Shown here: positions 3,464 to 64,000 of the stretch, piece after piece
Layout: each line of letters begins with the position of its first letter
How positions within the stretch are numbered: the stretch's first letter is position 1
Source of the DNA: Lachnospiraceae bacterium A4
Lineage (GTDB): Bacteria; Bacillota; Clostridia; Lachnospirales; Lachnospiraceae
Length of the DNA: 64,000 bases
Assembly: GCA_000403215.2 (NCBI GenBank)
Contig: KE159538.1
Location: 168,527 to 232,526, forward strand
Direction: 5' to 3'
Notes under the pieces: generated by a model
Databases searched by the model: none
What the model was told of the DNA's origin: nothing
The model's input: the letters and a program-made list of their open reading frames with translations, nothing else
Program-made: the position numbers and the translations under genes

Positions 3464-4912
3464 TTATCCTATCATCCAATCATACATTTCCTGATACTTC
3501 ATTGCAGACACTTTCCACGAAAAGTCCGTCGCCATTGCTCTGTCCACAATCTTGTTCCACTCGCGCTTTCTGTCGTAGTACACCTGCTCTGCATACCGGA
3601 TTGTACTGAGCATCTCATGTGCATTGTAGTTTACAAAGCTAAATCCGGTACCTTCATTTTCGTACTCATTATAAGGCTCTACGGTATCCTTGAGTCCGCC
3701 TGTCTCCCTCACGATAGGAACGGTTCCATAGCGCAGTGACATCAACTGGCTGAGTCCGCAGGGCTCGAACAGCGACGGCATTAAGAACGCATCACATGAC
3801 GCATAAATCCTGTGAGAAAGCTCTTCTGAATAAAAAATATTTGCAGAAACCTTGCCATGATATTTCCAGTCAAAATGGCGGAACATATTCTCATAGCGCT
3901 CCTCACCAGTTCCCAGCACCACCAGTTGAATATCATCCTTGCTGCACAATTCGTCCATAATATATGCAACAAGGTCCATACCCTTCTGGTCGGTAAGCCT
4001 TGACACGATGCCAATCATCATTTTCTTATCGTTCTCTTCCAGACCAAGCTGCTTTTGCAGGTCTCTCTTGTTCTTTATCTTCTCTTTTCGGAAGTTTGAC
4101 GCATTGTAATGATGTACAATATACTGATCGGTATCCGGATTGTACTCATCATAGTCAATGCCGTTTACAATGCCTCTGAGATCGTGCGTTCTCGCGGTGA
4201 GGAGTCCATTGAGCTTCTCGCCATAAAATTCCGTCTTGATCTCCTCCGCATAGGTCGCACTTACTGTCGTGATCGCATCTGCATAAGTAAGCCCGCCTTT
4301 TAAAAGGTTTCCGTCTTTAAAGTATCCCAGTTTATCAGGTGCAAAATATGAGCCGTCAAGACCTGTGATATGCTGCACTGTCCTGATATCATAAATCCCC
4401 TGAAATTTAAGGTTATGGATCGTCATGATTGTTTTCATGCCTTGATAGAACTCACCCTTGGCAAATCTCTCTTTTAAATATACAGGAATAATCGCTGCCT
4501 GCCAGTCGTGGCAGTGCACAATGTCCGGTCTAAAGCCAACTACCGGCAGGATTGACAATGCTGCCTTCGAAAAAAATACAAACTTGGTGATCTCCCCTAT
4601 ATGATCATCACTGTACGGCTTAAACCCTCCAAACATTTTCTCATTATCAATAAAATAATATGTGATGCCGTCATACTGTGCTTCCAGTACCCCCACATAC
4701 TCACTCTGCCCCATAAAATCCATATAAAAATGTGTCCTGTACTGGATCAGCGATTTCATATTTTCAGACATACACATGTATTTCGGCAAGACTACTCTTG
4801 CATCAAAGTATTTTTTATCATAATATTTGGGAAGTGAACCTACCACATCTGCAAGTCCCCCCGTCTTTATAAATGGTACACCCTCTGAAGCCACAAACAA
4901 AATGTTTTTCAT
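3464..4912 (-). CDS. glgA: Glycogen synthase (ADP-glucose, GT5)
   Basis: This 482-residue protein is collinear with bacterial GlgA. The N-terminal KTGGLADVVGSLPK loop binds ADP-glucose, RLTDQKG starts the second Rossmann domain, and MPSLFEPCGLSQL carries the C-terminal E-x7-E motif. It extends alpha-1,4-glucan chains from ADP-glucose in the cytoplasm. No other glg genes are nearby. A promoter (TTACAT, 17 nt, TATAAT) lies at 4971-4999. Confidence 0.93.
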   Translation of the reverse strand: MKNILFVASEGVPFIKTGGLADVVGSLPKYYDKKYFDARVVLPKYMCMSENMKSLIQYRTHFYMDFMGQSEYVGVLEAQYDGITYYFIDNEKMFGGFKPYSDDHIGEITKFVFFSKAALSILPVVGFRPDIVHCHDWQAAIIPVYLKERFAKGEFYQGMKTIMTIHNLKFQGIYDIRTVQHITGLDGSYFAPDKLGYFKDGNLLKGGLTYADAITTVSATYAEEIKTEFYGEKLNGLLTARTHDLRGIVNGIDYDEYNPDTDQYIVHHYNASNFRKEKIKNKRDLQKQLGLEENDKKMMIGIVSRLTDQKGMDLVAYIMDELCSKDDIQLVVLGTGEERYENMFRHFDWKYHGKVSANIFYSEELSHRIYASCDAFLMPSLFEPCGLSQLMSLRYGTVPIVRETGGLKDTVEPYNEYENEGTGFSFVNYNAHEMLSTIRYAEQVYYDRKREWNKIVDRAMATDFSWKVSAMKYQEMYDWMIG

Positions 4913-5571: not shown

Positions 5572-5715
5572 TAGCTTCTCCTCCATCCCTAAATTTTTGA
5601 CTGCCAAATGCCACCTAAATCACGTCTCCCATTCATAATCTTGGCTCAAAGAATTTATAAACGCTACTCCCAAATTACGTTTACTTACAAATTCTAGCAG
5701 GATTTGGCAATGTCC

Positions 5716-5745
5716 ATTATATAAGAATGTCAATTTATCTTGCAA
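5716..5745 (-). promoter_or_regulatory. Promoter of the Spo0A-like gene
   Basis: On the minus strand TTGCAA (5740-5745) and TATAAT (5716-5721) are 18 nt apart, about 145 nt upstream of the gene. The rest of the 5572-5882 gap holds a short CTGATA/TATCAG hairpin followed by T residues on the plus strand near 5850-5875 and no gene that I can see. Confidence 0.55.
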
Positions 5746-5882
5746 CAGTTACTTATCGCACTTTTTGCGCTTTACATACAGCATCCGCCAAAATATAACA
5801 TATTCCGCTCAAATACCTTAAAAATAGCTGTTTTTTCTTGTTGAAAGAGCTGATATTTTTATCAGTTTTTTTGCAAAATGAA

Positions 5883-6503
5883 TCAGTTAAGAGCGATTTT
5901 TACGCGATTACTTTTTTTCATTTTTTGATTCATTTTGCGAATATACCCCTTTCTTGACACTTCTTCTGGCTTAATATACACATCTGTTCCCTGTATTTTT
6001 TCCCTGATAAAAAGCGCGTGCTCCTGCAAGGACACCGTCCTGTAATCTGACGTGTTTTTGTGACGCCTGCCCCAAAAAACATCCTTGTGCGTGTGCGTCT
6101 CCATCTTGTTTCCACCGATTCCCAGACCTCTTCCCCATGCGATATTGGCATGTACGCAGAAATTTTTGAGCACATCCATCGCCACGCTGGTCTGCTCACC
6201 CTCGTACAGCTCTGTATAGAGAATTGCATAAAATCTGCCGCCAATGCTTTCCCCGCCAATCACCGCCTGTTCGACTTTTTCAAGAAACCGCAGCACCAGG
6301 GAAGGCACACTGTCCAGATACACATCTGCCGCAAGCACAATGGCATGTGCATCTTCAAGATATCTGTACACACTGTTCCAATCCATATTCTCCTCGAGCT
6401 TCACCAAGACCAGCTCTTCATGCTGCAGGCATTTCTGAATGATTTCCGCGCATGTTTCATTGCCAGCAGCCAGTGTATAGCCTCCGTCCAAAAACAGTAT
6501 CAT
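5883..6503 (-). CDS. Flavodoxin-like / NAD(P)H oxidoreductase-like protein A
   Basis: This 206-residue protein contains the pattern AIVLAADVYLDSVPSLVLRFLEKVEQ, which resembles the FMN-binding region of flavodoxin-fold reductases. The C-terminus is basic. It overlaps no neighbour and lies 39 nt downstream of another flavodoxin-like gene, so the two probably form an operon. It is a divergent member: the usual N-terminal phosphate loop is weak, so FMN binding is not assured. Confidence 0.5.
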   Translation of the reverse strand: MILFLDGGYTLAAGNETCAEIIQKCLQHEELVLVKLEENMDWNSVYRYLEDAHAIVLAADVYLDSVPSLVLRFLEKVEQAVIGGESIGGRFYAILYTELYEGEQTSVAMDVLKNFCVHANIAWGRGLGIGGNKMETHTHKDVFWGRRHKNTSDYRTVSLQEHALFIREKIQGTDVYIKPEEVSRKGYIRKMNQKMKKSNRVKIALN

Positions 6504-20606: not shown

Positions 20607-20676
20607 GCAGGATTAGTACATTGGTAGTACATCGGCTTCCCAAGCCGAGGAGGCGGGTTCGACTCCCGTATCCTGC
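20607..20676 (+). tRNA. tRNA-Gly (CCC), probable prophage attachment site
   Basis: A 70-nt cloverleaf: acceptor GCAGGAT/ATCCTGC, anticodon stem TCGGC/GCCGA with loop TTCCCAA (anticodon CCC), T arm GCGGG-TTCGACT-CCCGT. The integrase gene ends 82 nt beyond its 3' end and base composition drops there, so the 3' half is the likely attL core. The second copy must lie outside the window. Confidence 0.93.
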
Positions 20677-20758
20677 TTTTTTTATGCTTGTATTTATAAG
20701 GCTTTGCGGACTCGGCATATCAAAAAGTAATCAAAAAGGTAATCAGACATTTGTTCGA

Positions 20759-21976
20759 TTATTTGGCAACATTCTGAAACTCAGGTATAGAGCTTATGAG
20801 CTGTGCCTTTACATCAATACTCTTCCTGTTCCGATGATAATGTTCCTCTGTGCATAAAATATCTGTATGTCCCATTTGTTCTATAATCAACCTGTTATCT
20901 ATATGATTGTCAAGTAATATTGATCCATAAGTTTTTCTTATTTTATGTGGAGACTTATTATATATTCCAAGTTTTTTACATATCCGCCATAATCGTGCCC
21001 TGACAGCTTGTGTTGAAATCCTGCTACCATCTTTGACAAATATATATTCGTCAAATGGATTCTGCAACCTAAGTGATTTTGTAAGCCATTCGTAGTCTTT
21101 TGGAATAATTGCTGTGCGTACACCAGCCTGAGATTTGGGAAACTCTTTTATCAAGCGAACATATTCTCCATTTTCATTTTTGAATCTAGTTTCTGTCCTT
21201 CGTATTTTAAATGTGTTGCCTTCAAAGTCATCATGTTTTAACCCAACAACTTCCCCAACTCTGATACCAGTCACAAACATAAGCATGATTCCCAGATTTG
21301 TCAGATCGGGATTATTTTTAAGATAATCGATAATAATTGGCATTTCCTCTTCATTAAATACCTCTTCATAATCTTCTTTAATAACTTTTTTAAATTTAAT
21401 TTCAGAAATGTCAATATCATTAAATATCTCTTCAACGTTAAACATAACCAACTTCCTTTTTTTAGCCCTTTTTAGGAATCCTCTGGTAATTGTTTTTAAA
21501 TTCGAAAATGCTTTTGCAGTAAGATTATGATACGCAATCTGTTCTTCCAAAAACTCCACAATTTGATTTTCATCTATTGATTTGATTCGATATTTGCCAA
21601 ATTCTTCGTAATGTCTGTTAAATACTTGACAGTTTCTCAGGTGTGTTGCTTCTGATATCTTCTTTAATTCAAGTCTCCGATTATTCCATTCCTCAAATAC
21701 GTCAGTAATTGTAGGATCTTCCAGTTCGTCTTCCCAATATTCAATTATGTCATCTTCCAGATCTTTTTTGATTGTTTTTTTCTTTAATACCCTTCCCTTC
21801 TCTTTGTTTGGAAGATAAGTGTACCAATTACCATCTTTCCCCTTCCATATTTTGTATGGATGCTTTTTTAAAATTTCTTCTCTTTTTTTCATTTCAATTT
21901 GCTCTTGCACAAATGACATATCTATCATATCATTGTCAATAGCAAATTTCAATAATTTATCTGTTTTTGTTTCTAT
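20759..21976 (-). CDS. int: Tyrosine recombinase (phage integrase)
   Basis: About 405 residues. The C-terminal catalytic domain carries the Arg in TGIRVGEVVGL, the His-x-x-Arg in SPHKIRKTYG, the His in MGHTDILCTEEHYHR, and the nucleophile Tyr in EEHYHR. An AP2-like N-terminal domain and SAM-like core-binding domain precede it. The best start is an ATA codon (21974-21976) 7 nt behind AGGAAGGGG; the first standard start in frame, TTG at 21952, has no ribosome-binding site. It probably recombines into the adjacent tRNA-Gly. Confidence 0.92.
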   Translation of the reverse strand: METKTDKLLKFAIDNDMIDMSFVQEQIEMKKREEILKKHPYKIWKGKDGNWYTYLPNKEKGRVLKKKTIKKDLEDDIIEYWEDELEDPTITDVFEEWNNRRLELKKISEATHLRNCQVFNRHYEEFGKYRIKSIDENQIVEFLEEQIAYHNLTAKAFSNLKTITRGFLKRAKKRKLVMFNVEEIFNDIDISEIKFKKVIKEDYEEVFNEEEMPIIIDYLKNNPDLTNLGIMLMFVTGIRVGEVVGLKHDDFEGNTFKIRRTETRFKNENGEYVRLIKEFPKSQAGVRTAIIPKDYEWLTKSLRLQNPFDEYIFVKDGSRISTQAVRARLWRICKKLGIYNKSPHKIRKTYGSILLDNHIDNRLIIEQMGHTDILCTEEHYHRNRKSIDVKAQLISSIPEFQNVAK

Positions 21977-47070: not shown

Positions 47071-47105
47071 ATTTGTTCCTCCTATAAATTAAAATATTTT
47101 CACAT

Positions 47106-47216
47106 CATATATAACATCAACAGCCTTTTCAGACTGGAACATAGAAATTAACAATAGCTATTGTTATTACATATATAACATCAACAACCCACACAGGACT
47201 GTAACATAGAGATTAA
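47106..47216. repeat. Two 46-bp imperfect repeats around an 18-bp palindrome
   Basis: Copies at 47106-47151 and 47170-47216 share CATATATAACATCAACA and CTGKAACATAGARATTAA (IUPAC), with a variable 6-7 nt core. Between and overlapping them is the perfect palindrome TAACAATAGCTATTGTTA (47149-47166). Each repeat can form a short hairpin. They lie just upstream of the RecA-like gene and behind tnpB. A tandem operator/promoter is likely. This gap (47071-47262) holds no gene. Confidence 0.6.
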
Positions 47217-47262
47217 ATCTATATAAAATCTAATTCATGAGTTTTTATAAATTATTTGCCCT

Positions 47263-48522
47263 TTATAGTGGTATATTTACGACTAACGGATGTGAACCTG
47301 CACCCACTATCCCATTGTCAAAAACGTTTGGGAATACTTTTTTCATTATCTGATAACTACCATTTACATCTGCATTTATCTTTTCTCCTTCCTTCGTTAC
47401 AAAAAGTCCTCTATGCACTCTTCTCGATTTATCATAATTTCCTTTTACTGGCTGCTCACCATCAATAAAACTCGTTCCACTTGTATAACTCTCATCGGTT
47501 GTCTTAAATATAATCCCCTCTGCTTCACATTTATAAGCCAGTCTTTGAACTATACTCAAATATGGAATACCAACAAATTTCTGATTCACCTTTTTACTCA
47601 TATTACTTTCTTGTTTCCATCCAGGATTATATCCACAGACCAAAGTATCAATATTATTCTCTTTGCAAAAATCAACCACTATTTTTGTAGATTTCTGAAT
47701 ATAATCATCTATTTTATGATTTCTCTTTATGGTGAATCTTCTCATCTCATTTGAATAATCTCTGTTATATCTTTTCTTTAGTTCTGATTGTTTATCAGCA
47801 ATCATTTTGTTATAATACTGATTCACAGATTTCAGAGGTTTACCATTTATGATAAAAGGTTTAATTCCGCAATTTGTTGTAATAGTCATAAGATTATCAA
47901 TTCCTAAATCAATAGATGCTATTCTATCAGAATTATCTTCTATATCAGGAACATCAATCTCATAAACAACTTCCATTATGTATTCGCCATTTTTAGGTAC
48001 AAATCGTAACTGAATTAACTTCTTATCTTCTGCAATCTTTGTCATAAAAGTATCATTCATCACCTTTAATGGCTTCCAACAGAAAAATATATATCTATTT
48101 TTTATTTTAAATTTATGATTATCTAATCCACATTCATATCTACCTTTATCTTTATCAATATATTTTGGTATTTTAGGTCTTCCACAATATTTACTTGGAT
48201 TTTTACCATAATCTTTTATACTTTTAAAGAATCCATTCCAAGCTTTATCTAACTTTCTTAAAGTTGCTTGTCCTACATTACTACCAAGTTCTCTATACGG
48301 ATCAGAGTCCTTACACAAATTGAATAACTCGTTATACTTAATCCAATTTGCATTTTCTCTTAACCCTTCTTCTTTTTCTTTGGAAGTCTGTATAAATTCT
48401 TGTCTGATTATATAATTACCATAGTTATACATATTTTTAGACTTCCAACATAACTCATCTATAATTGAAAAGAATTTATTGTTTTTCTTTATTCTATGTT
48501 GCTCTACTCTTGTTGTTTTTAT
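47263..48522 (-). CDS. tnpB: TnpB / Cas12-family RNA-guided nuclease
   Basis: About 419 residues. RuvC residues appear intact: Asp205 in ASIDLGIDN, Glu305 in GYNPGWKQESN and Asp385 in NADVNGSYQI. The region between motifs II and III reads SYTSGTSFIDGEQPV and lacks the usual zinc-finger cysteines, as in one clostridial TnpB clade. The best start is ATA (48520-48522), 8 nt behind GGAG; the ATG at 48600 would force translation through a repeat and a spacer. No TnpA is nearby. The adjacent array and RNA suggest guide-directed DNA cleavage or binding. Confidence 0.85.
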   Translation of the reverse strand: MKTTRVEQHRIKKNNKFFSIIDELCWKSKNMYNYGNYIIRQEFIQTSKEKEEGLRENANWIKYNELFNLCKDSDPYRELGSNVGQATLRKLDKAWNGFFKSIKDYGKNPSKYCGRPKIPKYIDKDKGRYECGLDNHKFKIKNRYIFFCWKPLKVMNDTFMTKIAEDKKLIQLRFVPKNGEYIMEVVYEIDVPDIEDNSDRIASIDLGIDNLMTITTNCGIKPFIINGKPLKSVNQYYNKMIADKQSELKKRYNRDYSNEMRRFTIKRNHKIDDYIQKSTKIVVDFCKENNIDTLVCGYNPGWKQESNMSKKVNQKFVGIPYLSIVQRLAYKCEAEGIIFKTTDESYTSGTSFIDGEQPVKGNYDKSRRVHRGLFVTKEGEKINADVNGSYQIMKKVFPNVFDNGIVGAGSHPLVVNIPL

Positions 48523-48523
48523 T

Positions 48524-48689
48524 TTTATCACTCCTATAAATCTACACTGTTCTAAAACTCTTAAATGCTCCAATGGTATGTATTGTAGGTTTACTACCAT
48601 ATAAATTCACACTGTTTTAAAACCTGATCTTAGTTCTACATCAAGCGTATATAGGTTTATTACCTCATAAATCTATACTGTTTCAAAAC
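48524..48689 (-). CRISPR. Mini CRISPR-like array (three repeats, two spacers)
   Basis: Read on the minus strand, 35-nt repeats begin GTTTT and end GTAAAC: copy 1 at 48655-48689, copy 2 at 48589-48623 and a degenerate third at about 48524-48558 that merges into the tnpB ribosome-binding site. Copies 1 and 2 match at 28 of 35 positions. Spacers are 31 nt (48624-48654) and 30 nt (48559-48588) and unrelated apart from a shared initial CTA. The 66-nt period and the GTTT/AAAC ends are CRISPR-like. No Cas1/Cas2 is in the window. Confidence 0.65.
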
Positions 48690-48909
48690 ATCAAATTTAG
48701 GTATTTGTGAAGAGATAAAATCCGTTCACAGGACAAAACCCACGCCCACTATCTAATTGATTTCTCTTTTAGAATACTTTTTGCATGGAATAATTGACTT
48801 GAATCAGCCACTCAGAATTGTTATAATTAGAATAACAATTTGGATTATTCCATTTTGTTTATGTATGGCTCGTTGTCAATTCGGTCGCCAAACTTGTATT
48901 GACAACGAG
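48690..48909 (-). ncRNA. Structured guide-scaffold RNA (omega-RNA / tracrRNA-like)
   Basis: This non-coding stretch before the array repeats the nucleotide core of the tnpB 3' end: AAAGTATTC, 18 nt, then GATAGTGGG (48745-48780), also at 47303-47340 in tnpB. In tnpB the core is coding; here the frame is broken, so conservation is at RNA level. Upstream are a 12-bp stem (48869-48880 with 48898-48909) and a three-way junction closed by GGAATAAT/ATTATTCC. ATACCTAAATTT at its end can pair with the first repeat. Confidence 0.6.
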
Positions 48910-48918
48910 TTTTCTTTT
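48869..48918 (+). terminator. Terminator-like hairpin on the plus strand
   Basis: CTCGTTGTCAAT and ATTGACAACGAG form a 12-bp stem followed by TTTTCTTTTT. If used, it would end a plus-strand (antisense) transcript across the array. On the minus strand it is the 5' stem of the guide-scaffold RNA. Which reading is real is unknown. Confidence 0.45.
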
Positions 48919-48930
48919 TATTTGTTATCT

Positions 48931-49701
48931 TTACAGAATCCTTATAATCTGTTCATATAAACAGCTACTTCTCTCCCAATGAAAAGTTTCATTGACATGC
49001 ATATGACCAAAGAGCCATGCCTTATAATCAATATTCTGCTTAATCTCTTGCAAATAATCAGTCAACCTATCTCTTTGATATAATCCAGAACCACCATCCA
49101 TATGTCTAAGCAGTGAAGTATATGGACTATGAGTTATAATGTAATCTACCTTATTATTCTGCTTTTTAAGATTAGTCAAACCCTCATTCATCTCTTCTTC
49201 ACTCGGAAGTTCTCTTTCCCACCAGCTTATATGATTGATTCTGTATAAAGCATATGGATTCTTGTCTAACTTTTTCTTCTTTTCTTTGAAGTCTGGATCA
49301 TCAGGTTCCAAAATACCTGCAGATATATCATGGCTGCTTGCGCCTCCAAAAGCAAAGAATGACTTATCTTCTATGTCAAATATCTGTCCTCTCATTAGAT
49401 GAATAACTGATGGACGAATGAAATGCACATTTCCTCCGTGCCACTGTTCTATTGGGCAATTATCAAGTCTATCAAAATTATCATGATTTCCATCAATAAA
49501 TAATGTCGTGAATGGTTTATTTTCAAGCCAGTCTAACCAATACTTCTCAGTTTTATTTTCTCCGCTATAATCCCACACAAGACCAAAATCACCAAGAATA
49601 ATTACCACATCATCTTTTGCCATTTCCTTCTGCTCTGGAAAAATATCTGTTGAAAATCTTTGTGGATTTCCGTGTATATCACCTGTGATCCAAACCGCCA
49701 T
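48931..49701 (-). CDS. Calcineurin-like metallophosphoesterase
   Basis: This 256-residue protein has the metal-site motifs WITGDIHGNP, VIILGDFGLVWD, FIDGNHDNFDRL, YIITHSPYTS and LFGHMHVNETF. This is the full dinuclear phosphoesterase set. The substrate could be nucleic acid ends or a small nucleotide. The ATG follows GAGGTAGG. It is upstream of the guide-RNA/array/tnpB locus in transcription order. Confidence 0.9.
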   Translation of the reverse strand: MAVWITGDIHGNPQRFSTDIFPEQKEMAKDDVVIILGDFGLVWDYSGENKTEKYWLDWLENKPFTTLFIDGNHDNFDRLDNCPIEQWHGGNVHFIRPSVIHLMRGQIFDIEDKSFFAFGGASSHDISAGILEPDDPDFKEKKKKLDKNPYALYRINHISWWERELPSEEEMNEGLTNLKKQNNKVDYIITHSPYTSLLRHMDGGSGLYQRDRLTDYLQEIKQNIDYKAWLFGHMHVNETFHWERSSCLYEQIIRIL

Positions 49702-52386: not shown

Positions 52387-53850
52387 CTACCTCCGCCCAT
52401 ATAATCTTTCACGAATATCTAAAAATGTATCTTCTTTGACAAGTTCTCCATTTTCAAATACTGCCTTCAGGAGCGTATTATCACTCATTTCAAGAAGTTC
52501 ATCTCTACATATAAGTTCTCCATTTTCGCCAGCATATACTCTACAACATCCTTTATGAGATTTCTTCAACTTACTTGTATCAGTTTTAGGGTCTTTATAA
52601 ATCATCAGCTTCTTTCCATTAATAACTCCGTATGTTGCTTTCATAGCAATACCAAAAGTGTCTCTTGTTGCTACAATAAGATTACCATTTTCAACGATTG
52701 CTGAGAAACAGAAAGCACCAACACCATATGCAATACAATTAGCAGCAAAACCACGTATTTCTAATTCAGACCAAATAATATCTACATTTGATAAAGTACA
52801 CCCATCCCCATAAATGATACCAATATGCGGATCAAGCACTTTATATCCCTTAGAGTTCACTGTACCACCAAAAATTTCCCACAATTTTTCTACTGTTTTT
52901 ACTGAAATATCTACAATATCTCCACTATCAGGACGAATCAATAACTTACCATTATGATTCATAACATCATCTTTTACTTGTGGAAGAATGTTATTTACCA
53001 TATTCCAATAATCATAGGTATCTGAAACCATACTGAATGATGTATTTGGATAAAGTTCATTCAAAAGACGCTTTACGAATGTTGCCTCATCTCCATCAAT
53101 GGAATAATTTGCTCCCATAACCGAATGTTCTGTAGAAACTGCTCCAATGCCCAATCTATTATTTTTACAATCAGCACTATAATACTTATCAATATAGTTG
53201 ATTGCCGGAATTGTCGATGTCTTATCAAAAGAAATCAGCCAAGATGCAGAACATCTTGTAGCTTCATCCATACATGACATTCCCCGCATACCAAAATCTG
53301 CACAAGCCATAGATGAAGGAATATTTTCTACAGTCTTTTCATACCACTTATCCGCAATCTGCCTATACATATATCCAATAGTTGCATGACAACATGGTTT
53401 CCAAAGTTCTACCTGTAAAATACATTCAATCCACTGTACAAGCCACGCAAAACCATCATGTGTATTTGTAATCTCAATACAAGGAACGCCCATAGGCACT
53501 AAAGTCCCTTCTGGCAATGCTCTAATTTGTAGTGGTAAATATCCAAGACTGTGAAGATTAATGATCTTATCCCAATCATAATTCTCTTTTCCGATTTGAA
53601 TATCCATCGAATCTGTATACAACTCTAATACTTCATCTTTTGTCAATGCAAAGAAATTATCATTAAAATACTCAATCAGATATTCTTTAATAAATGCTTG
53701 AAGTCCAAAGAATACCATTTTATTCTGAGTCTTCAACATGGATTTTCTTGGAACCCAATATGAAACCAATTTAGTAAGCCCTGTAGGATACATTCTGTCG
53801 TGACACTGTTTATATGTATCAGAAAGCAATAATGCCATTGTATTACTCAT
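52387..53850 (-). CDS. Nicotinamide phosphoribosyltransferase-like (NadV or Namat)
   Basis: 487 residues, NAMPT/NadV length. The active-site blocks are present: ADFGMRGMSCMDEATRC, VSTEHSVMGANY, LLIRPDSGDIVD and IIYGDGCTLSN. NadV joins nicotinamide and PRPP to NMN. In the described phage NARP1 pathway a protein annotated this way (Namat) instead joins nicotinamide to ADP-ribose pyrophosphate, making NAD+ directly. Sequence by eye cannot separate the two. It lies 6 nt after the Prs-like gene. Confidence 0.85.
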   Translation of the reverse strand: MSNTMALLLSDTYKQCHDRMYPTGLTKLVSYWVPRKSMLKTQNKMVFFGLQAFIKEYLIEYFNDNFFALTKDEVLELYTDSMDIQIGKENYDWDKIINLHSLGYLPLQIRALPEGTLVPMGVPCIEITNTHDGFAWLVQWIECILQVELWKPCCHATIGYMYRQIADKWYEKTVENIPSSMACADFGMRGMSCMDEATRCSASWLISFDKTSTIPAINYIDKYYSADCKNNRLGIGAVSTEHSVMGANYSIDGDEATFVKRLLNELYPNTSFSMVSDTYDYWNMVNNILPQVKDDVMNHNGKLLIRPDSGDIVDISVKTVEKLWEIFGGTVNSKGYKVLDPHIGIIYGDGCTLSNVDIIWSELEIRGFAANCIAYGVGAFCFSAIVENGNLIVATRDTFGIAMKATYGVINGKKLMIYKDPKTDTSKLKKSHKGCCRVYAGENGELICRDELLEMSDNTLLKAVFENGELVKEDTFLDIRERLYGRR

Positions 53851-53856
53851 TTTTAT

Positions 53857-54681
53857 TTAAACCTCCATAACTGTAATTTTTTCATGTTCACCTGTGAAAA
53901 TGCTATTTGTTGTAAACAGCCTCTCTACTGTATTATTCTCCAAAGACTTAATCAAAGTGCCCTTCTCCATATTAAGAACCGAATTTTCAGTGTGCGTTGC
54001 AAAAGCATAGATTTTATCTACACCATTTTCTTTCAAAGTATTTGCACTATAATAAAGGGAGCCACCATATGCAATAATGTCATCAATCATAAGAACTGTT
54101 TTGCCAGACAAGTTAATACCATTAGACTTTATATCTAAACCAAGAATCTTTCCTGTATCCCAATCTCTTTTCTTTTCACCATAACAGTATTTGTACTTTG
54201 GGAACATATCAGAATATCGTTTTGCTGCTCCCTCGTCTGGGAAATATAAAATCAAATTCGTATTATCTTTCTCAATCTGCTTAATTACTTCATTAATATA
54301 AATCTTTGGAGTTTCTATAATCACATTATCAATTAGTGCTGCTCCTACATTACTATGTACATCTAAAATCGTTACTAAATCGAATTTAAGCCAATTAATA
54401 ACATCTGCAAAACTTTTTAATGTAAATACTTCATCTCTTTCGTGAATCCGATCCATTCTTGCATTTGGAAGATAATTCATTTTCAATCTCACTGATTTCG
54501 TATAAGGATTATTTCTTAAATGTCTTGTAATATAAATCAGTGTTGATAACTCTTCTTCCTTTTCGTATCTCCAATCAATGCTGTAATCTCCAGATGCCCT
54601 CCACATAGATTCTACTAATAACTTCTGTGTTCCATCTGGAAAATGATCAATATTAATTACTTCATCATTTACTTTAATCAT
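53857..54681 (-). CDS. Ribose-phosphate pyrophosphokinase-like (Prs or Adps)
   Basis: 274 residues, shorter than cellular Prs (about 310). The flexible loop (MNYLPNARMDRIHERDEVF) and the PRPP loop (LMIDDIIAYGGSL) are present, and HFPDGTQ replaces the usual FSDGE. Prs makes PRPP. In NARP1 the protein annotated as Prs (Adps) pyrophosphorylates ADP-ribose. Divergence, short length and its pairing with the NadV-like gene make the Adps reading credible. Confidence 0.8.
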   Translation of the reverse strand: MIKVNDEVINIDHFPDGTQKLLVESMWRASGDYSIDWRYEKEEELSTLIYITRHLRNNPYTKSVRLKMNYLPNARMDRIHERDEVFTLKSFADVINWLKFDLVTILDVHSNVGAALIDNVIIETPKIYINEVIKQIEKDNTNLILYFPDEGAAKRYSDMFPKYKYCYGEKKRDWDTGKILGLDIKSNGINLSGKTVLMIDDIIAYGGSLYYSANTLKENGVDKIYAFATHTENSVLNMEKGTLIKSLENNTVERLFTTNSIFTGEHEKITVMEV

Positions 54682-63020: not shown

Positions 63021-63158
63021 CTATACAGCGGATAATTTTACCGATGAAATTGGCTTTCTATTGGGTATCACACCCATTTTATGTAGACAACATTGTGTAC
63101 ATAAGGCATTAGAAGTACCTCTATCCAATAGTCCTTAAAAGACATTTTGGAATACTTT
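63021..63158 (-). ncRNA. tnpB 3'-end relic or stand-alone omega-RNA
   Basis: Behind the methylase stop the minus strand reads KVFQNVF, a stop, then GLLDRGTSNALCTQCCLHK, echoing the KKVFPNVFDNG C-terminus of tnpB. Nucleotide features AAAGTATTC and GATAG are shared with the tnpB 3' end and with the RNA at 48690. It folds with a 7-bp closing stem CTATTGG/CCAATAG (63058-63064 with 63125-63131) and inner stems TTATGTA/TACATAA and GGGT/ACCC. No tnpB body is attached. The rest of 62875-63157 shows no gene. Confidence 0.45.
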
Positions 63159-64000
63159 TATTTATTTTCTTTCACACATTCCATAATTCTATTTTTGCCA
63201 GTATTAAATATCTCTTCATCATTCTCAATACAGATAATCTTCCTGCCTGTCCTAATGGCAGCCACACCAGTTGTCATACTACCAGCCGTTGAATCAAGCA
63301 CAGTATCACCCTCATTTGTATAGGTTTTAATTATTTCTTCTACTAAGGCTACTGGCTTTTGAGTTGGAGTTAATGCACACTTTTGGGTATCTTTGGCGAA
63401 TAGCCAAACTGACTTAGGAAATCTCTCTGTACTGTCATATGTATGATTTTTGATTTCGTTGTAATTTGTTGACTGCTTACTATTTCTTTTGTGGGACGCT
63501 GTACTAACTTTTCTGATATGTCCGTTTGTTTTCTGAGGATTATACGTTGGTTGTTTCTTATAGAAAACACACATATCCTCATGATATCTCATTGGCATTC
63601 TATTAGCATTCTGGAACCCTGTAGGTTGTGTTTTCTCCCAAATGAGATTGTATTTCCACATCTCACGGTTGCTCTCCATAAGATCAGCGGTAAACATACC
63701 GTTTGCAAATAGAATAATTGCGCCATTATCTTTAATGATTCTTTTATATTGAGTCCATAACCCCATAGACTTATTTTCTTCAAAATACGAAAGTGCACCA
63801 TTATAATCAGTTTCTCCTTGCTTATAACACCACAAAAGAAAATCATCTTTATAAAATACCTTTGGTTTCTTTCTCACTTCTAAAGTTATATAGTCATTAA
63901 ATGGAATTACTATATCCCAAGCATTCCTGGCGGTCTGCCCAAACGGAAGATCTGTGATAATTGCATCTATAGATCTATCAGGAATATCATCCATTAGTTT
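63158..64000 (-). CDS. Beta-class DNA methyltransferase (cut by window edge)
   Basis: The frame is open to the right edge, and the visible start (KLMDDIPDRSIDAIITDLPF) is the middle of the usual N-terminus, so the true start lies outside. The catalytic motif is TDLPFGQT; the SAM motif TVLDSTAGSMTTGVAAIRTG deviates from D-P-F-x-G-S-G. LTPTQKPVALVEEIIKTYT is a typical beta-class block. The target is unknown. It is upstream of the PAPS-like and second methylase genes in the transcript. Confidence 0.85.
   Translation of the reverse strand, partial: KLMDDIPDRSIDAIITDLPFGQTARNAWDIVIPFNDYITLEVRKKPKVFYKDDFLLWCYKQGETDYNGALSYFEENKSMGLWTQYKRIIKDNGAIILFANGMFTADLMESNREMWKYNLIWEKTQPTGFQNANRMPMRYHEDMCVFYKKQPTYNPQKTNGHIRKVSTASHKRNSKQSTNYNEIKNHTYDSTERFPKSVWLFAKDTQKCALTPTQKPVALVEEIIKTYTNEGDTVLDSTAGSMTTGVAAIRTGRKIICIENDEEIFNTGKNRIMECVKENK

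Follow-up and report, generated by a model that had tools for sequence, protein, structure and literature searches.

A phage-borne TnpB-family nuclease with a detached omegaRNA-like scaffold and a short repeat array: a candidate intermediate between TnpB and type V CRISPR systems

Layout of the locus and its nuclease

The window analysed here is a stretch of 64,000 nucleotides (nt) from Lachnospiraceae bacterium A4 (contig KE159538.1, positions 168,527-232,526 of the forward strand), and it carries, within a prophage, a TnpB-family nuclease gene preceded by a short repeat array and a detached guide scaffold. Read along the minus strand, an RNA module (48785-48909) comes first; next are the scaffold (48690-48783) and an array of two spacers between three repeats (48522-48689), and last the nuclease gene, which ends at 47263. 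An earlier, sequence-only reading had proposed scaffold RNA, repeats and nuclease as three parts in a row, and we found the same layout with different spacers in four other phage contigs. The locus is likely to encode a TnpB-derived RNA-guided DNA nuclease on its way to becoming a type V clustered regularly interspaced short palindromic repeats (CRISPR) system of the TranC or V-U kind. This transitional reading, also put forward earlier, is supported by spacer turnover, by homology between the scaffold and the tnpB 3' end and by compensatory pairing between scaffold and repeat. Below, L numbers are our working labels for tnpB loci, G numbers for genomes or records and C numbers for contigs; tracrRNA and crRNA stand for trans-activating CRISPR RNA and CRISPR RNA. 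The principal features are as follows.

47263-48531 (-), TnpB-family RNA-guided nuclease, probable coding part; the open frame extends to 48600
48690-48783 (-, approximate), detached guide scaffold, putatively tracrRNA-like and derived from an omegaRNA core, placed by covariance-model match and pairing counts
48731-48747 (-), scaffold hairpin; its loop, 48736-48741 (GGGTTT), is predicted to pair with the repeat ends
48700-48703 (-), antirepeat core TACC, predicted to pair with GGTA of the repeat
48653-48689 (-), repeat 1, from repeat detection and relatives
48624-48652 (-), spacer 1, identical in L001 and without a relative in L002-L005
48587-48623 (-), repeat 2, from repeat detection
48559-48586 (-), spacer 2, identical in L001 and without a relative in L002-L005
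48522-48558 (-), repeat 3, degenerate; the ribosome-binding site of tnpB, as judged by eye, forms its 3' part
47232-47343 (-), omegaRNA attached to the tnpB 3' end; its loop (47293-47298) is predicted to pair with 47232-47237, and the guide would start at 47231

The frame at 47263-48600 (-) matches the Pfam domains OrfB_IS605 (expectation value (E) 1.5e-20) and Cas12f1-like_TNB (7.4e-9), and its protein scores 174.8 bits with the NCBIfam model guided_TnpB against a cutoff of 100, which upholds its assignment to the TnpB family. A PADLOC Cas12f model also matches it (E 9e-9), but with the curated NCBIfam Cas12f2 model it reaches only 30.7 bits against a cutoff of 450; guided_TnpB fits better. 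The D-E-D triad had been called intact: the putative residues D231, E370 and D411, numbered from the ATG at 48600, are indeed invariant in 24/24 aligned proteins, but the glutamate is rearranged, and all of them have a glycine at its canonical position. E370 is spaced like the alternative catalytic glutamate known from Fanzor-type proteins, as given in an extract of PMC10711439, and the same comparison shows a serine in place of the first zinc-finger cysteine of those proteins. An AlphaFold model built from the 24 sequences (mean predicted local distance difference test score 88.7) matched Cas12f (Z 23.6), TnpB (21.4 and 21.3), Fanzor2 (19.0) and LaTranC (15.1) in fold. The ratio of nonsynonymous to synonymous substitution rates between the window and L004, 0.082, points to purifying selection on the nuclease. 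The true start probably lies near 48519-48531, where relatives and a ribosome-binding site place it, because the ATG at 48600 falls inside the array. An 11-residue insertion was considered as a mark of the array-bearing clade and rejected, being present in the array-less L058 too. As for an IS200/IS605 partner, the list of open reading frames holds no further minus-strand frame of at least 60 amino acids between the two neighbouring genes, and no search with a TnpA profile was made.

Relatives of the locus and turnover of its spacers

Two scans of the viral_contigs collection yielded 13 and 61 loci and a scan of species genomes nine, four of them fragments and five with full-length matches; the scaffold check covers these five and gave no upstream match in any of them. 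Among 397 family genomes searched at 1e-80, the own genome and four others (44-54% identity) gave matches; among 392 order genomes searched with L038 at 1e-100, it was the own genome and two others (44-47%). The layout is present in L001 (same spacers), L002, L003, L004 and L005, and L038 has a scaffold-like stretch with one repeat. The proteins of L002-L005 and L038 are 64-93% identical to that of the window, and in a tree of 53 rows, drawn without L075, a single clade with support 100/99 unites the window with L002, L003, L004, L005 and L038 (entered as L035-L039).

A 23-nt repeat core occurs three times in the window (48667-48689, 48601-48623 and 48536-48558), with spacings of 66 and 65 nt and 87% identity to the reference copy. 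Read alongside the relatives, the unit is a 37-nt repeat with a 28-29-nt spacer, and the third copy is degenerate. The repeats and two spacers of the sequence-only reading stand, with their lengths revised from 35 and 30-31 nt. Its caveat that the repeats are diverged is borne out: across the five distinct loci, the internal repeats of different loci are on average 75% identical (48 comparisons, without the degenerate last copies) and the spacers 48% (57 comparisons, without the 57-nt L005 spacer and with the L003 duplicate counted a single time). In the comparison of the window with L004, identity at the DNA level is 91.5% in the gene, 92% in the scaffold region and 82% and 81% in the two full repeats, but 48% and 53% in the spacers, against a shuffled-spacer baseline of 47 +/- 6%. 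The intervals are thus not conserved as the repeats are, and spacers vary while repeats stay in the related phages, L002-L005 combining the same layout with wholly different spacers.

L003 contains one repeat-spacer unit twice, in identical copies, which we read as recombination and not as ordinary acquisition. L003 and L005 carry extra internal repeats that keep the conserved end. Automated repeat detection passed over the L037 array and the single L038 repeat at its threshold, and both were read by eye.

Other phage contigs carry more than one gene of this type. On the viral contig of L089, a separate repeat array lies close to each of two TnpB/Cas12f-like genes (1387-1980 and 5695-6040), and the first gene matches Cas12f/Cas12u3 models at 4e-106 and 1.8e-102. 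Two tnpB genes of the present family lie on single phage contigs in G398 (L002/L044) and G408 (L075/L092); in G398, one of them has the array layout and the other is without an upstream scaffold match.

The scaffold, the repeat ends and the other omegaRNAs

The covariance model R1 was built from 16 tnpB 3' ends of array-less loci, the window being absent from the training set; it includes L041, an element with a relocated upstream omegaRNA, entered by its 3' end only. Searched over 11 sources, in which L003 and L036 are one place, R1 matched the detached scaffold of the window at 48728-48783 (E 0.0019) and those of L036 (2e-6), L035 (5e-5), L039 (2.6e-4), L037 (9e-4) and L082 (0.007), as well as the linked tnpB 3' ends of the window and of L035-L039. 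A wider search over 270 kb, which combined the window with ten 20-kb stretches of flanking DNA and a phage stretch, gave a single extra match up to E 1, at 0.93. A covariance model from tnpB 3' ends, a check suggested at the outset, thus recovers the detached scaffold in the window and its relatives, and this match together with the repeat families D6 and D8 confirms the proposed core common to scaffold and tnpB 3' end. The exact scaffold pattern found five contigs in viral_contigs, those of L001-L005; a looser pattern found six, the same five array contigs and L135, which was set aside as a chance match inside a coding frame.

In a five-row alignment, the hairpin, the pseudoknot and the antirepeat core are paired in 75/75 cells with four double changes; 8/500 shuffles did as well and all six slid versions did worse, although this score is favoured by a structure drawn from the same sequences. 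The loop and the repeat end have changed in a compensatory manner, most tellingly in L003, which has GGGGTT and AACCCT in place of the GGGTTT and AAACCT of the other four. In a set of 34 elements (22 linked, six standalone and six split), covariation between the loop and the end that precedes the guide averaged 12.5 against 9.9 in permutations, of which 0/2000 were as good for all elements, 0/2000 for the linked, 33/2000 for the standalone and 160/2000 for the split taken alone; the linked and standalone ends were picked by eye, which introduces a bias, and for the split ends, fixed by the repeat-spacer border, the test is weak by itself. The duplex between scaffold tail and repeat was matched in energy by none of 200 shuffles in L003, 12 in L005 and 21 in L002, and cognate scaffold-repeat pairs average -14.8 kcal/mol against -13.6 for non-cognate pairs. 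Folded together with repeat 1, the RNA of the window is more stable than its shuffles (z -3.45, over a stretch that includes the separate 5' module). An extract of PMC10097598 describes a comparable pseudoknot before the guide in the ISDra2 omegaRNA, and its authors proposed, on structural grounds, that tracrRNA and crRNA came from a split omegaRNA. Judged by sequence, the scaffold is homologous to omegaRNA and is predicted to pair with the repeat end in the manner of the omegaRNA pseudoknot.

The window tnpB has also kept an omegaRNA at its own 3' end, matched by R1 at 47285-47343 (E 2.7e-12) and overlapping the end of the gene. Its loop and end are GGTTCA/TGAATT in the window, L002 and L004, changed in step relative to GGTTTA/TAAATT in relatives; the pair is still good in L003 and weak in L005. 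This linked omegaRNA also looks intact. Because it persists, the upstream scaffold is best described as a copy: the proposal of a scaffold split from the nuclease gene and joined to an array holds as to its omegaRNA homology, but what was joined is a second copy and the tnpB-linked one was retained.

Among 68 further sources, R1 matched 5' of tnpB only in L041 and L082. L041 has a single relocated upstream omegaRNA with one guide (3779-3990), behind a perfect TTGACA-17-TATAAT promoter recognised by eye. Its sister in the tree, L082, carries a single spacer between two repeats, and the L082 tnpB frame ends early. R1 matches occurred in 12/13 whole records at E <=0.05, and detached omegaRNA copies lie in the own genome (window 63108-63161, E 4.4e-4), in G399 (two), G405 (two) and G408 (one). 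A weak match in G398 was taken as noise, and L117 is the end of another tnpB. The standalone omegaRNA of the window and a G405 copy (L121) both follow a similar methyltransferase-like gene, as judged by eye, and are alike up to about 12-14 guide bases before they diverge. The first 15 guide bases of the window copy have no second site in its own genome at <=1 mismatch. In L051 (5234-5490), the omegaRNA 3' end is repeated 3' of tnpB, twice in tandem and once further on, with different bases after each copy; this is perhaps another route to an array.

Four further features of the window complete the picture.

63056-63161 (-), standalone omegaRNA 3' of the methyltransferase-like gene; the guide would start at 63055
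48785-48909 (-), separate phage RNA module 5' of the scaffold, probably not part of it
47088-48965 (-), cassette 99.95% common to the window and L001 phages, whose flanks differ (about 89% alike or unrelated)
20759-21928 (-), phage integrase, likely a prophage end, adjoining a tRNA at 20607-20677

The structured RNA had been drawn as 48690-48909, of which the part at about 48690-48783 stands as scaffold and the remainder is the separate module. The latter consists of a hairpin with an apical TTTGGCGA motif and a changing stem, followed by a conserved TATAACAA..ATTCAAGTC part. It lies 5' of the scaffold in the window, L001, L002, L004 and L005, and it belongs to another element, since it is also found away from any tnpB at C12:245757-245878 (-), in the own prophage, and at G405:55904-56025. 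Rfam gave no match for it at the gathering threshold and none that convinced below; our model R2 of the module has only five consensus pairs and served mainly as a sequence model.

The integrase beside a tRNA gene agrees with the prophage location given earlier, as do genes for an anti-repressor and a tape-measure protein, which lie beyond the right edge of the window on the same 791,821-base contig; the element would be a temperate phage of roughly 150 kb. Adjoining reading frames at 52387-54681 (-) resemble NadV and Prs by eye, a phage nicotinamide adenine dinucleotide salvage pair. Two tandem 64-nt hairpin-like units lie 3' of tnpB at 47095-47216 (-); they were considered as a second array and rejected, related units lying away from tnpB in L004 (3474-3571).

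Interpretation, alternatives and known systems

The course of events that we propose begins with a copy of the tnpB omegaRNA that came to lie 5' of the gene. Its 3' part, the last helix and the bases before the guide, would have been repeated to give a crRNA-like array that holds the guides, while its 5' part would have become a standalone, tracrRNA-like scaffold. Scaffold, array and tnpB are presumably transcribed together, and a host RNase would cut the RNA into units. The repeat end would contact the scaffold through a short repeat-antirepeat helix and a pseudoknot between loop GGGUUU and end AAACCU, a contact that the covariation favours. Given its family and conserved triad, TnpB may then load scaffold and crRNA and cut DNA that matches the spacer, and the omegaRNA of its own gene, like the standalone ones in the prophage, can probably be loaded too. 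The likely use in the lysogen would be to attack rival phages or other mobile DNA. A wider proposal, which we consider somewhat less likely than not, is that one phage nuclease works with three kinds of guide (the linked omegaRNA, the upstream tracrRNA/crRNA array and standalone omegaRNAs, at least one of them with a conserved short guide), that the array has grown without Cas1-Cas2 through copying of omegaRNA ends and recombination, and that the linked, relocated and split forms show, in living phages, stages by which tracrRNA-type CRISPR systems arose.

Several observations weigh against the transitional type V interpretation. L038 has kept a single repeat, and with its scaffold-like stretch R1 gave a non-significant E of 0.31. 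The scaffold tail-repeat duplex is no better than shuffles in the window (69/200 as low) and in L004 (133/200), and the repeats have diverged between loci to the extent given above. Promoter consensus sites are not in excess in the region (eight found against 14.4 expected from shuffles). Adaptation genes do not lie beside the locus, as had been noted for the window: the sole Cas1 match in the own genome is at the host locus on C23. Protospacers were found in none of the searches of phage, plasmid and viral_contigs collections and of the own genome, so that the proposed search for targets of the array came back empty. In the phage collection, the best blastn matches were E 0.1 for the window array (in a Gardnerella phage, spanning spacer 1 and repeat 2; best 15 of 35), 0.3 for L005 (best 10 of 14), 4 for L003 (two matches), 0.003 for L002 (an Aeromonas phage, over repeat 1 and not a spacer; best 6 of 24) and 0.5 for L004 (five matches). 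The window array reached E 2 among plasmids (best 6 of 9) and, besides the array itself, 0.36 in its own genome. The window array searched in 22 records and the L005 array in 24 reached 0.0057 and 0.0044 outside array loci, never over a whole spacer. Exact seeds of the window spacers (22 and 20 nt) occurred in viral_contigs only in the near-identical L001 contig, and a degenerate pattern of the long, coding-like L005 spacer found only itself there. An excess of short matches to one L005 spacer (eight places) was put down to chance because 27-31 of 56 bases agree, much as in 60 random stretches (mean 27, maximum 30), and a match of the L005 array in MT835492 was dropped because it straddles a repeat-spacer border.

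The negative protospacer searches and the small number of diverged repeats are also what one would see if the repeats were tandem regulatory elements in the tnpB leader, where binding of the scaffold might hide the ribosome-binding site, and the intervals were neutral filler; the ribosome-binding site does lie in the last repeat, and L038 has a single repeat. We consider this unlikely, since the intervals are of near-constant length, the repeat ends match the omegaRNA end that precedes the guide and show compensatory pairing, and in L003 the whole repeat-spacer unit has been duplicated. Slightly less probable again is that only scaffold, repeat 1 and spacer 1 function, as a natural single-guide RNA descended from a relocated omegaRNA, with the further repeats as decaying copies. 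Repeat 1 directly follows the scaffold and folds with it, L041 possesses just such a single upstream guide RNA and repeat 3 is degenerate, but the additional internal repeats of L003 and L005 retain the conserved end, and in these two the antirepeat of the scaffold is longer and fits additional repeats.

Mini-arrays of one or two spacers are known from phages, as described in an extract of PMC11656645, and the locus could in principle be such a viral mini-array, or an RNA anti-CRISPR, that uses or blocks host Cas proteins. This is very improbable. The host locus on C23, with Cas1 beside a 19-copy array of repeat GTCACGCCCC... and with Cas1c models fitting best, is of type I-C; its repeat is unrelated to that of the phage, so a host-derived repeat was rejected and the phage array is no copy or mimic of the host array. 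Among the 397 family genomes, the phage repeat pattern occurs only in the own prophage and in none of the 396 others, and scaffold and nuclease travel with the array. Array-less TnpB genes are common in phages, but an ordinary phage-borne TnpB with a chance repeat upstream can be dismissed, being already contradicted by recurrence in one protein clade, conserved layout and covariation.

The stages predicted for such a transition can be seen together in one phage TnpB group: linked omegaRNA only in most relatives examined, the relocated one-guide form of L041, the one-spacer array of L082, and arrays of at least two spacers in the window and L002-L005. Of these last, the window, L002, L003 and L004 still have a plausible linked RNA. 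The order of events, and the gain of spacers before adaptation genes, are thereby open to direct test. The setting also suggests that intermediates of this sort are carried by temperate phages, perhaps to fight rivals, and the locus looks like one step from transposon enzymes to CRISPR systems.

TranC systems are transposon-CRISPR intermediates and provide the experimental case of a split omegaRNA. The window locus resembles them, at the level of predicted parts, in its TnpB-derived effector, its apparent division of omegaRNA into tracrRNA-like and crRNA-like parts and its short array; it differs in being phage-borne and in keeping a linked omegaRNA. In the modelled fold, LaTranC (PDB 9jfq, Z 15.1) is a weaker match than Cas12f (23.6) or TnpB (21.3), and the window protein did not retrieve LaTranC by sequence at E <=1. 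Because of the TranC case and of the candidates grouped under type V-U, the kind of system is already known. What looks new is the lineage, for which we found no description in the limited library of literature searched, and the presence of three guide sources in one phage.

According to an extract of PMC12669027, TnpB is inferred to have become associated with CRISPR arrays or adaptation modules on about 50 occasions, and the candidates are grouped under V-U. The window shares with V-U a TnpB-like protein beside an array without an adaptation module, and differs in its few and diverged repeats. Cas12f (V-F) is the best fold match of the model and uses a tracrRNA and crRNA, as is predicted here, but the window protein lies far below the Cas12f2 cutoff and its glutamate is rearranged. 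With IS200/IS605 TnpB, for example ISDra2 (in the portion of PMC10097598 cited above), it shares the protein family and a linked omegaRNA with a pseudoknot before the guide, and differs by its second, detached scaffold with array and its phage setting. Viral mini-arrays (extract of PMC11656645) are alike in having one or two spacers in a phage; here, however, the repeat is not the host's, and scaffold and nuclease are carried along. What stands out beside all of these is the combination of a phage setting, an alternative-glutamate TnpB without the zinc-finger cysteine, a retained linked omegaRNA and standalone guides.
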